A stretch of DNA of 64,000 nt from an uncultured Clostridia bacterium. Its GTDB lineage: Bacteria > Bacillota > Clostridia > Lachnospirales > CAMZNU01. This document shows, one piece after another, positions 39,175 through 46,435 of this stretch. The stretch lies in NCBI GenBank assembly GCA_947313885.1, contig CAMZNU010000031.1, positions 1 to 64,000 of the forward strand. Reading direction: 5' to 3'. A model generated the notes under the pieces. The model searched no databases, was not told the DNA's origin, and worked only from the letters and a program-made list of their open reading frames with translations. Position numbers and translations under genes: made by a program. The first letter of the stretch is position 1. Each line of letters opens with the position of its first letter.

Positions 39175-41148
39175 ATGGAAAATGTAGATTTAGAATTAGA
39201 AAAAGAGTTTGTTGAGTGGATGAAAAAAGGAAAGAAGAATGGTGAACTTTATGTAAAAAGCACAATAACGGAGTATTGCAGGGAAATTAAAAATTTATAT
39301 AGCGTATATAAAATAGAGGGAATATTACAAAATAGAAATTTGTTTAATGTTGATTCAGCAGAACAAGTAGAAAAATTAATAAGCATAAATAAGAACACAA
39401 CAGAATTAAATGATAATGATAAAAAAAGATATAGCTATTTAATATCACCAATAAATAAATATTTAGAGTTTTTAAAATCTAGAGAAACAATAAATAAAAA
39501 AGGTACGTATGAGTGGACAACATTTTATGAAATATTTGCAAAAAGATTATTAGATTATAAAAACAATAGAGGAGAATTAATAGAAAAAATTAATTCGGCA
39601 TATAACTTAATGGAAGAAGCAACTATACAAAACCCATTAATAATAAAGGATAAAGAGGTAAAAGATATTTGTCCATTTACTATATTTGGATTTTTTAATA
39701 AAGGAATTACAGATGAAAATAGAATATTAACAATAAAAAAGCTCACAGAAGTTTTAAATATAGAAGAGGAAGCACCTACATCATTTATAGGTATACCAAA
39801 AAAAAATAACATAAGTGCATTTTTTTTTGAGAATGAAGAAAAAAGAGGAGAAGAAGATATAAATAACTTATGGGAAATGTTTGAAATTGCAATTAAGTTA
39901 TCAGAAAATTACACAGGAGAAAACAAACAAAAATTTATAGAGGTATATGATAAAGTAATAACACAGAACAAAGTTAGTTGGAGTATTACAACAGGGATGT
40001 ATTGGATAAAACCATGGAGTTATTTAACATTAGATAGTAATACTAGAAAAAAATTAAGAAAAAAATTAAATATAGAAATTAAAGAAAGTAAAATATGTGA
40101 CGGTACGGAGTATATTAGATTAGTAGAATTATTAAAAGAGAATTTTAAAGATGAAAATTATGAAGTTCATTCATTTCCAGAGTTATCACATAAATCTTGG
40201 AATGAAAAGACGGAGATAGATGAAGTTTATAACATAGATGAATTACATGAACTAGAAGAAAACAAAGTATACGAAGATTATACAAAAGAAAATTTATTAT
40301 TAGAGTCGTTTATAGATGCAGAAGAGTATGACACTATAAAGAATCTTATAATTAGAAAGAAAAATATTATTTTAAAAGGGGTGGCAGGAGTAGGAAAAAC
40401 GTATATAGCAAAAAGGTTAGCATATTCTTTAATAGGTAAAAAAGATACATCTAAAATTAAGATGATTCAATTTCATCAAAGTTATTCATATGAAGATTTT
40501 ATTATGGGATATAGACCGTGTGAAACGGGATTTGAACTTAAAACAGGACCGTTTTATGATTTTAGTAAATTAGCATCAGAAAATCCAGATGAAAAATATT
40601 TCTTTATAATAGATGAAATTAACCGCGGTAATATGAGTAAAATTTTTGGTGAATTAATGATGCTTATAGAAAGCGACAAACGTGGCGAGGAATTAACTCT
40701 AACTTATGATGATAAACCTTTTTCAGTTCCAGAAAATTTATACATGATAGGTATGATGAATACAGCAGATAGAAGTTTAACTATGATAGATTATGCATTA
40801 AGAAGAAGATTTAGTTTTTTTGAGCTACAACCAGCGTTTAGAAAAGATAAGTTTAAAAAAGAACTTTTAGAACGTGGTGTAAGTGAACATATGATAAATA
40901 AAATAAATTCAAAAATAAGTGATATTAATGATGAAATAGTTAAAGATGTTAACTTAGGAAAAGGGTTTAGAATAGGACATAGCTATTTCTGTGATTATGA
41001 CAATGGAATACGAAAAGGTGATGTAAAGAAATGGTATGAAGAAATAATTAAATATGAAATAAAACCTCTTTTAGAAGAATATTGGTTTGACGATGAAAGT
41101 AAAGCGTTAGAATCTATTAAAGAGTTATTAGGAAATGCAGATGAGTAG
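39175..41148 (+). CDS. mcrB: McrB-like AAA+ NTPase subunit of methyl-directed restriction system
   Basis: GVAGVGKTYIAKRLAYSLIG, IQFHQSYSYEDFIMGYRP, FIIDEINRGNMSKIFGELMMLIE, GMMNTADRSLTMIDYALRRRF. Confidence 0.93.
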   Translation: MENVDLELEKEFVEWMKKGKKNGELYVKSTITEYCREIKNLYSVYKIEGILQNRNLFNVDSAEQVEKLISINKNTTELNDNDKKRYSYLISPINKYLEFLKSRETINKKGTYEWTTFYEIFAKRLLDYKNNRGELIEKINSAYNLMEEATIQNPLIIKDKEVKDICPFTIFGFFNKGITDENRILTIKKLTEVLNIEEEAPTSFIGIPKKNNISAFFFENEEKRGEEDINNLWEMFEIAIKLSENYTGENKQKFIEVYDKVITQNKVSWSITTGMYWIKPWSYLTLDSNTRKKLRKKLNIEIKESKICDGTEYIRLVELLKENFKDENYEVHSFPELSHKSWNEKTEIDEVYNIDELHELEENKVYEDYTKENLLLESFIDAEEYDTIKNLIIRKKNIILKGVAGVGKTYIAKRLAYSLIGKKDTSKIKMIQFHQSYSYEDFIMGYRPCETGFELKTGPFYDFSKLASENPDEKYFFIIDEINRGNMSKIFGELMMLIESDKRGEELTLTYDDKPFSVPENLYMIGMMNTADRSLTMIDYALRRRFSFFELQPAFRKDKFKKELLERGVSEHMINKINSKISDINDEIVKDVNLGKGFRIGHSYFCDYDNGIRKGDVKKWYEEIIKYEIKPLLEEYWFDDESKALESIKELLGNADE

Positions 41149-42190
41149 TAGTTTAAAAATTCCTATAAAAAATATATATTATATGCTTTGTTATGGGTGG
41201 GACATATTAGAAGAAAAGGATAATATACGTACAGGCGAAGAAGAGTTTGACAATATATATAACTTACTTGGAAAAATTTATATTAAAAGAGTAAACAGTT
41301 TAATTAAAAGAGGAGTTAAAAAAGAATATATTGAACAAACAGAGGCAATTGGAATAATTAAAGGAAAAATAAATGTACAACAAACAATAAACGGACAGTA
41401 TTTGCAAAAAGGAAAAATAGTTTGTACATATGATGAGTTTTCAGAAAATATTAAGTTAAACCAAATTATAAAAACAACAATTAACATTTTAATAAAAGCA
41501 CCGAAGTTAGATAAAGAAACGAGGGACGAGCTGTTAAAAGTAAGGATATATTTTTCAAACATAGAAGAAATAACATTATCTAATAGATTATTTGGAACAC
41601 CTACATATAATAAAAATGATTCAAATTATAAAATGTTAATAAATATTAGTGAGTTAATTTATAATGGGCTAATTGCAAATGAAGACGGTAATAAATTAGT
41701 ATTTTCGGATTTCATAAAAGAAAATAAAATGCCAACACTGTATGAGAAATTTGTTTTAAATTTTTATAAGGAGCATTTAGACAACAAAACTTATAAAGTT
41801 CATGCACCAATAATAAAATGGAAAATAGATAATGATATGTCAGAAGAAGATAGATCATTATTGCCACAGATGAGAACGGACATAGTAATAGAAAATAAAG
41901 AAAAAAATACCCAACTAATAATAGATACTAAGTACTATTTAAAAACATTAGTAACTAATAATAAAGGAGATAAAGAAAAAGTTAGAACAAGCCATTTATT
42001 TCAAATGTTCGCCTATATAAATAATAGTAAATTTCAGGGACATATAGACGGATTGTTATTATACCCTACAGTGAATAAAGAAATAGATATTAATTTTCCG
42101 ATAGATGGTAAAAACATTAAGGTGACAACTCTTAATTTAAATGGAGACTTTAAAGAAATAAAAAATAAACTATTATCAATTGTAGATTAG
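41135..42190 (+). CDS. mcrC: McrC-like nuclease subunit
   Basis: IPIKNIYYMLCYGW start, PD-(D/E)xK-like TDIVIENKEKNTQLIIDTKYY; overlaps the 3' end of mcrB. Confidence 0.9.
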   Translation: MQMSSSLKIPIKNIYYMLCYGWDILEEKDNIRTGEEEFDNIYNLLGKIYIKRVNSLIKRGVKKEYIEQTEAIGIIKGKINVQQTINGQYLQKGKIVCTYDEFSENIKLNQIIKTTINILIKAPKLDKETRDELLKVRIYFSNIEEITLSNRLFGTPTYNKNDSNYKMLINISELIYNGLIANEDGNKLVFSDFIKENKMPTLYEKFVLNFYKEHLDNKTYKVHAPIIKWKIDNDMSEEDRSLLPQMRTDIVIENKEKNTQLIIDTKYYLKTLVTNNKGDKEKVRTSHLFQMFAYINNSKFQGHIDGLLLYPTVNKEIDINFPIDGKNIKVTTLNLNGDFKEIKNKLLSIVD

Positions 42191-42225: not shown

Positions 42226-42255
42226 TTGATTATGATACTATATATATGATATAAT
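42226..42255 (+). promoter_or_regulatory. Sigma-A-type promoter for RNA1
   Basis: TTGATT - 18 bp - TATAAT, predicted TSS near 42260. Confidence 0.65.
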
Positions 42256-42258
42256 AAA

Positions 42259-42340
42259 TTAACCGTTAAGAGGCGTGGTGCAAGCCCTATTCCTAATATC
42301 TTACATGCGGGAACTTGGATGGTATACCATCCTTTTTTTT
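42259..42340 (+). ncRNA. RNA1: abiF-associated pseudoknot small RNA (candidate RNA antitoxin), self-terminated
   Basis: Interleaved pairings aacc(42261-42264)..ggt(42277-42279) and ggc(42272-42274)..gcc(42284-42286); terminator ggatgg-tata-ccatcc-T8; homologous to 43350-43437. Confidence 0.8.
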
Positions 42341-42356: not shown

Positions 42357-43334
42357 ATGAATGTAAATAAATCTGAAAATATAGATAAACCACTAAATAT
42401 TGATGATCAAATTAAGTTAATGGAAAAACAAGTTGTATTTATAAAAGACGAAGAAAATGATATGAGGGAATTTTTAAATTATGCGGGTTATTTTAGAGTT
42501 AGTACATATAGTAAATACTTATTGTCACATACTAGTAATTTAAAAGAGAAACCAAATCAAGAACTATTATTTAAAGTATATAATTTTGACAGTGAACTGA
42601 GAAAGTTATTTTTTTTATATTGTAAAAAAGCAGAAATACAAATAAAGAGTCATATTGCAAATGCAGTTTCTTTAAAATTAAACGATCCAGTTTTTTATTT
42701 AAATGATGGTTACTATACAAAAGGAAATGATAAGAAGAAAAGCAAGAGTCGTAAAAAGATTAAAAAGGATAAATATAATAAATTTAAAGAAAAAATTGAT
42801 AAAAGTGAAGAAAAATTGCGAAAAAACAATAAAAGGTATCCAGAATTCAAGGTATATCTAAAGGGTGAAGAAAAAGATAAAAATAAAATACCAGCTTGGG
42901 CAGCCTTTTCATATTTTGAATTTGGAACTATAAATAATATATATAAATATCTTAGAGGGGATTTAAAAAAAAGAGTTCTGATTTATGGATATTCAAGAAA
43001 AAAGTATAAAAAAACAACGGCTCTATCTATGAATACATGGTTAGATGCTATTAAAAACTTAAGAAATACTTGTGCACATCATAATAAATTAATAGGTAGA
43101 ACATCATCAATTGTGAAACTAGATAGTGCGGTAGATGACAAAGAGACATTACCTAAAAACACAGATTTATTTTCACAAATTTACGCACTAAAGAAAGTAT
43201 TAAACGTTAAAGATGGTGAAAGTTTAAAAGTAGAACTTAGGGAATGTATAGATAATGCAGAATTTGATATTTATGCATTTAATATTTTGCCAAAAGAATG
43301 GGAAGAATTATTTGATAGAATAAAAAAATTATAA
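42357..43334 (+). CDS. abiF: Abi_2-family (AbiD/AbiF-like) HEPN-type abortive infection protein
   Basis: N-terminus LNIDDQIKLMEKQVVFIKDEENDMREFLNYAGYFRVSTYSKYLL; FDSELRKLFFLYCKKAEIQIKSHIANA; WAAFSYFEFGTINNIYKYL; HEPN RX4H = R236-NTCA-H241. Confidence 0.88.
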   Translation: MNVNKSENIDKPLNIDDQIKLMEKQVVFIKDEENDMREFLNYAGYFRVSTYSKYLLSHTSNLKEKPNQELLFKVYNFDSELRKLFFLYCKKAEIQIKSHIANAVSLKLNDPVFYLNDGYYTKGNDKKKSKSRKKIKKDKYNKFKEKIDKSEEKLRKNNKRYPEFKVYLKGEEKDKNKIPAWAAFSYFEFGTINNIYKYLRGDLKKRVLIYGYSRKKYKKTTALSMNTWLDAIKNLRNTCAHHNKLIGRTSSIVKLDSAVDDKETLPKNTDLFSQIYALKKVLNVKDGESLKVELRECIDNAEFDIYAFNILPKEWEELFDRIKKL

Positions 43335-43349
43335 TGGAATATAATATTA

Positions 43350-43437
43350 ATAACCACTAGAAGGCACGGTTAATGCCCTAATCCAAATATTCTACATGTG
43401 GGGGAGATAAGACTATATGTTTTATCTCTTTTTTTTA
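43350..43437 (+). ncRNA. RNA2: second, diverged copy of the abiF-associated pseudoknot RNA
   Basis: aacc(43352-43355)..ggtt(43368-43371) and ggc(43363-43365)..gcc(43375-43377); shared core gcccta.tcc.aatat..tacatg.ggg; own terminator gagataa...ttatctc-T8. Confidence 0.8.
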
Positions 43438-43460
43438 TGCAAATAAAAAATCATAGATAA

Positions 43461-43525
43461 AACTTAATTTAAATGGATGTTTTAAAGAAATTAAAAATCA
43501 TATATTATCCCTAAATAATGAAGAA
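43461..43525 (+). pseudogene. mcrC C-terminal tail relic (duplicate of the 3' end of mcrC)
   Basis: cttaatttaaatgga-tgt-tttaaagaaattaaaaat matches mcrC cttaatttaaatgga-gac-tttaaagaaataaaaaat; LNLNGCFKEIKNHILSLN vs LNLNGDFKEIKNKLLSIVD. Confidence 0.8.
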
Positions 43526-43578: not shown

Positions 43579-46435
43579 ATGACAGAAAACAAAAACTATG
43601 ATGATGAAAATAAAACCTCTAATACTATTAATTACGAGTTTCAAAGTTTAACACCAGTGGAAGATGTTGAAAAAATGGAAGGGTATAACGAGGCGTTAGA
43701 TAATATTTTTAAAAAACCAGAATTAAAAAATATAGCAATAACAGGTGGGTACGGATCTGGTAAAAGCAGTATTGTAAAAACCTATGAAAAAAATAGTGAT
43801 GGAAAAAAAATATGTATATGTATCTCTTGCACAATTTGAAGAAGATGGAGAAACCAAAGCCAAAGCAAAAATAGAGAAAGATAAAACAGAAGACAAAATA
43901 AATGATGCGATAGATGAAAAAGAAGAAATAGAAATAGAAAAAAAGTTAATCAACCAGATAATACACCAGATAGAAAGAGAAAATATTAATCAAGCACATT
44001 TCAATGTAAAAGAACATATGAATAAAAAAACAATGTGGTGTTATAGCATTTGGATAACTATATATATATTGATGATATCGTATATATTAAACCTAAGTGA
44101 AAAATTAAAAATGATAGTAGTGATAAACATAGGTGAACAATCAAAATTAAACTATATTACTTACATTGTAGTAATAGCATTAACAATATTCTTTATATAT
44201 AAAATAATAAAAGCCCAAAAAGAAGGTGGTATTTTAAAAAAAATATCTGTAGGTAACAATGAAATAGAAACAAAAGAAAATGCTCCAGAATCATACTTTG
44301 ATAAATATTTAAATGAAGTAATTTACATATTTAAAAATTCAGAAATTGACGTCGTTGTATTTGAGGATATAGATAGATTTGATAACAAAAGAATATTTAA
44401 TAGACTTATGGAAATAAACAAGTTAATAAATGCAAAAAATAAAAAAGATAAAGAGCCTATAAGATTTTTCTATTTAGTGCGTGATGAATTATTTACAGTA
44501 GATGATAAAACAAAGTTTTTTGATTTTATCATACCGATAATACCCGTAGTACATGGATCAAATGCACATGTAAAATTTAGAAATTTTTTACCTAAAGAAG
44601 AAAATAATAACATTGAAGAAAGGTTTTTAAGGAATGTCTCTTTGTATATAAACAACATGCGAATTATAAGAAATATTTGTAATGAGTATATAATATATAA
44701 AGAGCAATTAAAGGATAAAAAAAGTTTAGAAGAAAATAAATTATTTGCAATGGTAGTTTATAAAAATATGCTACCTGAAGATTTTGCAAAGTTGCAAAAT
44801 GGGGAAGGCTTATTAGTAACATTATTTAGAGAAAAAGAGGAAGAAAGAGAAAGAGAAAAAGAAAGTGCAGAAACAAGAGAAAGAGAAATAAGAGAAAGAG
44901 AACTAAGAGAAAGAGAACTAAGGGAAATAGAAAGAAAAAAAGAATATAAATATTACCCACTATTAAAATTTATAGTTGATAAAGGTTATATAAGTAAAGA
45001 CTATGAAAATTACATAGCATATTTTTATGAAGGTAAATTAACATTTAGAGACGAAGAATTTATAAAAAGTATTAGACGAAAAGACTCTAAACCATATAAT
45101 TACAAGTTAAATAACCCAGAGGGTATAATAGAACTATTATATGATGAAGATTTTAAACAAGATGAAATTTTAAATATAGATCTACTTCTACATTTAGGAA
45201 AACATTATGAAGAAACAAACAAATATGAGAATGAAAAATATAAAAATATTATTGAAGTAGCTAGTAAACGTGGAAACGAATACTTTATATTTAATTATAT
45301 GGACAATCATGTGAATATATGGCTATTCATAAAAAAACTATATCAATTTGATGAAGATATATATGAAAAAATAATAGGTTGTGAAAATAAGAAAGACTAC
45401 TCAAACTATATATATAAAAAAACAAAATATATAATGTATTCAATAATTTTCATGGAACACGAAGTAATAGATATAGAACCAGTAGTTGAAAATTACATTG
45501 CAGAGCATGCACAAAAAGAATATGAATTGTATATAAAATATATTAGAGGTAATGAATTAAAAGGTAGTGAATTAGACGAGTTAGTAAAAAGTAATTACGT
45601 ACCAGATGAGTTTAAAGTTATATTGTTAGACAGCAATGAAGATGCCGAAAATTTAAAATATATTAGTAATACTTTTAAAATATATCAATTGATAAAATTA
45701 GAAAATTATGAAAAAATTGAAAATATTCAATTTTTATTAGAGTTATATTATGAATTTGAAGAAAAAGAAATATCAATAGATACAGAAGAATATGCATCTA
45801 AAGTAAGAAAAACAAAAAAAGACATACTTAAAATAAGTAAAAAAATAAATGAATCTAGAGATGAATTTGAAAACACACAAAAATATATAATTGAGTTAGA
45901 AAATATAGGGAATTATATAAAAGCGCTAGATGATGAAAGTATAGCAATTAATCTCCTAGCATATAAAATAATTAGAAAAAATATAGAACAAATAATTAAA
46001 GGTGATTTTAAATGCACTATGGATTTATTAGAAAGATTAATAGAAGATGGCGAAGTTGATACTAATGATAAGATTAAAATATTTACAAAGAAAAAACAAC
46101 AAAAATATATAAATGTAGAAAAGTTAAGTAGTAAGTTAATGAAAGCTGTAGGTAATAAAGAGTATATGAGTAAAAACAAGAAAGGTTCGCTAAAGGTTAT
46201 TTATGGAAAAGATGATAAATATATTTTAACTAAAGGTAGTAAAATGAAAAATTTGGATGAGACAAGAAAAAAACTATCAGAATATATAAAGCTAGGGAAA
46301 GTAAAAGAAACACAAAGTGAACTAATAGCAATGGAAGAATTAGAATTTAACACTCCTACGGAAGTGGAAAAAGTATTATCGGGAAAAGGCGTAAATGGCT
46401 GGACACAATTTGAAGGTTTAAATGATACTAGATAA
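43579..46435 (+). pseudogene. Large YobI-like P-loop NTPase with TM segments, split by a +1 frameshift in an A8 tract (ORFs 43579-43839 and 43784-46435)
   Basis: ORF1 carries Walker A GGYGSGKSS; ORF2 continues YVYVSLAQFEEDGE... with Walker B-like VVVFEDIDRFD. Removing one A at 43803-43810 fuses them (...NSDGKKYVYVSLAQFEED...). Confidence 0.82.

Follow-up and report, generated by a model that had tools for sequence, protein, structure and literature searches.

The window, i.e. the whole 64,000-nt stretch of DNA that was analysed, carries an abiF gene (42357..43334, +) with related structured RNAs on both sides, RNA1 upstream and RNA2 downstream. The gene encodes a 325-residue Abi_2 protein with a HEPN motif, RNTCAH, at residues 236-241; the protein matches PF07751 (E=5.6e-33), is called AbiD by PADLOC, and has an RNxxxH motif of which R236 and H241 are invariant in seven homologues. 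Its sole significant solved relative, both by sequence (E=2.8e-16) and by fold (E=4.3e-8, TM 0.63/0.68, for a model with pLDDT 69.7), is PbAbiF (PDB 8vz6), with 19% identity in a fold alignment that compares the proteins alone. The solved form of PbAbiF is reportedly dimeric and contains two RNAs. RNA1 comprises a core (42259..42313, +) and a terminator (42317..42332, +), the latter formed by GGATGG/CCATCC past a short spacer and followed by a T run; a putative promoter (42226..42255, +; TTGATT-18-TATAAT with TG before the -10 element), called by consensus match only, precedes it. The locus thus combines the features expected of an AbiF type III system, i.e. an Abi_2/HEPN protein with RNxxxH, the AbiF fold, and an upstream structured RNA with promoter and terminator. 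RNA2 begins 16 nt past the abiF stop codon; its core (43350..43404, +) contains the stems P1 (CCAC/GTGG) and P2 (AGAA/TTCT) and a GGC/GCC hairpin, and its terminator (43400..43432, extending to about 43437, +), the first one 3' of abiF, is a long stem that abuts P1, with a TATAT loop and a T run.

Past RNA2 lies a degenerate 54-nt copy (43456..43509, +) of the mcrC 3' end (42124-42177; 81% identity), so that an mcrC tail borders the RNA1-abiF-RNA2 cassette on either side, as though the cassette had arisen there by insertion or duplication. An McrB-like AAA protein and McrC are encoded directly upstream of the cassette (39175-42190), and a YobI/Tmn-like NTPase is encoded downstream in two separate frames (43579-43839 and 43784-46435), the break in an A run being either a true frameshift or an error of sequencing, such that mcrBC, abiF and the NTPase gene make up a small defence island.

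The identity of RNA2 was assessed with R2, a covariance model built from 23 homologues, from which both window RNAs were left out to avoid circularity. When searched against the whole 1.55-Mb genome, R2 gave RNA2 as the best match (64.8 bits, E=1.4e-14) and RNA1 as the second (43.5 bits, E=1.8e-8); the third-best match had an E value of only 7.75, and nothing else in this genome was convincing. RNA1 scored 56.1 bits with model R1, and the core pattern matches the window at RNA1 and RNA2 and nowhere else, where none is expected by chance. The second RNA copy originally predicted at 43350-43404 is borne out by these matches and by the RNA's own terminator; RNA2 is a genuine second copy of the putative AbiF antitoxin RNA. 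The predicted GGC/GCC hairpin is present in both RNAs, and both terminator stems exist and differ, as proposed. The term 'orphan' suits RNA2-like copies found elsewhere, but not RNA2 itself, which sits directly 3' of abiF.

A nearly ungapped alignment reveals a two-part outer stem, P1 (columns 5-8/49-52) and P2 (columns 10-13/41-44), enclosing the GGC/GCC hairpin, with a one-sided 3' linker of 12 nt that contains CCnAATAT. Across 28 sequences P1 and P2 are 97-100% paired with 18 doubly changed cells, 99.0% of cells pair overall and 5 pairs are altered on both sides, a degree of pairing matched by none of 500 shuffles. In a home-made, tree-aware covariation test in the manner of R-scape, in which all column pairs were ranked, the top three pairs all belong to P1/P2, the best being 7-50 (E=0.025), which alone among them is significant, followed by pairs with E values of 0.85 and 1.7. 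No variation is seen across the copies in the pairs of the GGC/GCC hairpin or in the GG and CC of the core, in part because the DNA pattern with which the viral copies were collected demanded them; P1 and P2 lie outside that pattern. An invariant GG/CC pseudoknot (columns 19-20/34-35) is possible from the alignment. The outer stem, which is the strongly compensated helix, was absent from the original prediction, and the AACC/GGTT helix named there finds no support, with 68% of cells pairing in 22 homologues, no better than in shuffles, and nothing from its pairs in the tree-aware test; its formation would exclude that of the genuine CCAC/GTGG outer stem. RNA1 and RNA2 differ at 14 positions of the 49-column core, and the claim that these are mainly unpaired was wrong: seven lie in paired columns and all keep pairing, the changes being G7-C50 to A-U, U8-G49 to C-G, A11-U43 to G-C and G12-C42 to A-U. 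The proposed selection on structure is supported by the ranking of P1/P2, but for a helix other than the one named.

The window RNAs resemble the Rfam family RF03085, reportedly described by Weinberg in 2017, in having an outer stem around a 3-bp hairpin, a one-sided 3' linker and a position upstream of abiF. Rfam scans at gathering and relaxed thresholds nevertheless returned no abiF match for the window RNAs; RF03085 itself gave none in the RNA1-RNA2 region at E values up to 10 or in the homologous loci L051, L055 and L023 at E values up to 5, whereas L006 scored 32 bits in the same scan. RF03085 is 37 nt in length, in contrast to the window RNAs with their two-part stem and 12-nt linker with CCnAAUAU. 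This comparison suggests that the window RNAs form a sister family of RF03085 that is tied to one AbiF clade.

A close known parallel is AbiF-RCd22 of the Clostridioides difficile prophage phi027 (PMC12373285), which likewise has an Abi_2/HEPN toxin, an upstream RNA with a promoter, a terminator between the RNA and the toxin gene, two RNA motifs per locus and phage-borne copies. RCd22, the gene of which precedes abiF, neutralises the toxin both in cis and in trans, a function that needs its stem but not the sequence of that stem (PMC12373285). Both RCd22 motifs (33 and 35 nt, RF03085) are within one upstream RNA (PMC12373285), whereas the window has one RNA on each side of abiF with a core unmatched by RF03085.

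Dual copies are not confined to the window, as the order RNA1-abiF-RNA2 recurs in at least three viral contigs (L019, L020 and L051; counts from the viral collection are lower bounds), the AbiF proteins of which are 51-59% identical to that of the window. RNA2 is intact in these three further abiF loci, i.e. it is not degenerate in all relatives. The clade has eight abiF loci listed besides that of the window, and in five of these (L016, L017, L018, L129 and L274) only the upstream RNA is present, so RNA2 is dispensable. In L129 a second Abi_2-like protein is, by eye, apparently encoded just upstream of the RNA-abiF pair.

The upstream and downstream copies end differently. By a classification defined only after the sequences had been inspected, all nine upstream copies have a type 1 3' end, in which a short spacer precedes the terminator stem, and all four downstream copies have a type 2 end, in which a longer stem, often with a TATAT loop, follows directly past P1. 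A promoter ends 6-8 nt before the RNA in all seven upstream copies tested, and none of the downstream or solo copies tested is preceded by a full hexamer pair. The best promoter-like site of the window region is that of RNA1, with no such site before RNA2; a perfect TATAAT that is suitably spaced from RNA2 but lacks a matching -35 element makes a weak RNA2 promoter possible. Because no full promoter precedes RNA2 and the window region has only two terminators, those of RNA1 and RNA2, the simplest reading is that the abiF mRNA ends in RNA2, and from its sequence context RNA2 is probably made in this way.

RNA1 and RNA2 of the window also have in common four core states (columns 10, 21, 44 and 46) that occur in no other copy, the most of any among 276 pairs, although, since columns 10 and 44 pair mutually, these represent about three events rather than four. 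The private states may have arisen because both RNAs adapted to a single AbiF, or because gene conversion exchanged sequence between them.

We consider it reasonably likely that RNA2 is a second antitoxin RNA of an AbiF type III toxin-antitoxin (abortive infection) system, coupled to the toxin mRNA. This reading is based on the observation that the RNAs have a common fold, that the gene order is conserved, that two types of 3' end exist, that RNA2 lacks a promoter-like site and that the window pair has private core states; from it we infer binding by AbiF, release from the mRNA and neutralisation by RNA2. In the proposed mechanism RNA1 would be transcribed from its own promoter and end at its own terminator, and read-through into abiF would yield a message that terminates in RNA2. 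Each toxin mRNA would thus bear an antitoxin unit, with the RNA2 terminator closing the operon, and AbiF, which probably works as a dimeric HEPN RNase, would be kept inactive by binding RNA2 in the manner of RNA1; by analogy with RCd22, both RNAs should have this effect. The original prediction had offered three roles for RNA2, among which a second antitoxin fares best. An RNA of different specificity is disfavoured by the four private core states that the window RNAs have in common, and a decoy, though a better fit for the toxin-free phage copies described below, is less so for RNA2.

The RNA is found apart from the toxin in at least 13 viral contigs, which lack AbiF of this clade nearby. A whole-contig AbiF search of 12 of these gave no match in 11 and a distant one in L034; as the contigs may be fragments or prophages, such absence does not prove a lytic anti-AbiF phage. 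Within the order, 8 of 392 genomes, counting that of the window, have the RNA, an AbiF of this clade is present in one of the nine other RNA-bearing genomes (G840), and seven further genomes carry the RNA without abiF; G355, which seems to hold the same prophage as viral contig L036, was not counted twice. Weak genome matches inside coding genes (L057 and L058) were set aside.

The toxin-free copies recur at particular places in phage genomes. In the 152.9-kb contig of L040 the RNA is flanked by tRNA-Arg and tRNA-Tyr, and phage L194, about 90-97% identical over this stretch, lacks a 118-nt segment that holds just the RNA, which implies that the RNA was gained or lost by itself. It is likewise found past tRNA-Asp in an 18-tRNA cluster (L093) and before tRNA-Gly (L025). 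In L023, L034 and L036 it lies between the terminase and portal genes at the end of variable cargo, with a protein of RNase H domain encoded there in both L023 and L034 and different genes in L036; the same site is occupied by RNA1-abiF-RNA2 in L019 and L020 and is nearly empty in close relatives, e.g. L286 and L288. Among 80 contigs of relatives collected by terminase the RNA was present in two, both already known, and it was present in none of 80 collected by portal protein. Large named phages with related terminases (Sundance, PJN02, BcoS-136, 949, phiL47, E3 and others) yielded no convincing copy, the best E value being 0.09, and nucleotide searches of named phage records with the solo RNAs found nothing convincing. 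This rarity among relatives implies that the RNA is accessory cargo and not a core phage RNA.

These copies bear on a different account of RNA2, i.e. that it is a phage-type solo antitoxin RNA, either pre-existing at the insertion site or added beside RNA1-abiF, which would be uncoupled from abiF expression and would counter AbiF in trans or safeguard the element upon abiF loss. RNA2 has its type 2 end and TATAT loop stem in common with the phage solo copies L023, L026, L034, L035 and L036, the same 3' end occurs past a darT-like gene in L056, and solo RNAs are more numerous than abiF-adjacent ones. L279, in which a type 1 RNA (1501-1555) is followed by about 10 codons of a deleted abiF and then by unrelated sequence, reads as a locus in which the toxin is lost and the RNA kept. 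The order is, however, retained in four diverged loci, and this, together with the private core states of the window pair, argues for a lasting partnership with AbiF, such that we regard this origin as unlikely.

It is more doubtful still that RNA2 serves abiF chiefly as a structured element for termination or for the 3' end of its mRNA, which AbiF would cleave so as to eliminate its own mRNA, a form of negative autoregulation with little antitoxin output. Its start so close to the abiF stop codon and its provision of the first terminator there are consistent with such a role, as is the cleavage and processing by AbiF of its RNA, according to a review (PMC12737573), but a mere terminator needs no 55-nt core, and that of RNA2 is as conserved as in the upstream copies. 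That RNA2 is a non-functional relic of tandem duplication, to which the duplicated mcrC tail and the split NTPase gene downstream might point, is very improbable, given that RNA2 fits the family model better than RNA1 (64.8 versus 43.5 bits) and that all its stem differences preserve pairing.

Viruses may carry the solo RNA to disarm AbiF, with the phage RNA acting in trans against AbiF of the host. We see the chances as evenly balanced that the intact, toxin-free AbiF antitoxin RNAs represent a phage counter-defence made of RNA only, with RNA2 being the same element beside the toxin. The configuration of an RNA in a phage without the defence protein is found for the solo copies and not for RNA2. 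A precedent is pseudo-ToxI, a type III antitoxin RNA carried by phage PhiTE, by which the toxin of the host is suppressed (PMC3475682); it concerns another toxin family, and expansion was needed because the copy in the wild-type phage was not complete (PMC3475682), whereas the solo copies here look intact. Racr, the RNA anti-CRISPRs, are likewise solitary phage RNAs that mimic the RNA partner of a defence nuclease (PMC10651486), although they mimic CRISPR repeats, whereas the solo copies resemble a toxin's antitoxin. Should the solo copies block AbiF, abortive infection would have natural inhibitors made of RNA, comparable with RNA anti-CRISPRs. The part of the literature covered contains no description of phages with solo AbiF RNAs, and their novelty is provisional.

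AbiF is the proposed ancestor of Cas13, which raises the question of the route from the AbiF RNA to guide RNAs. With one copy to either side of the toxin gene and others alone in phages, the RNA family provides material for testing how antitoxin RNAs gain independence from their genes. Type 1 copies followed by other sequence are also found in L275 and L277. The type 2 copy in L056 (1501-1553), in which the 5' stem arm is damaged, overlaps the 3' end of the darT-like gene, which, by eye from the translation, adjoins a darG-like gene.
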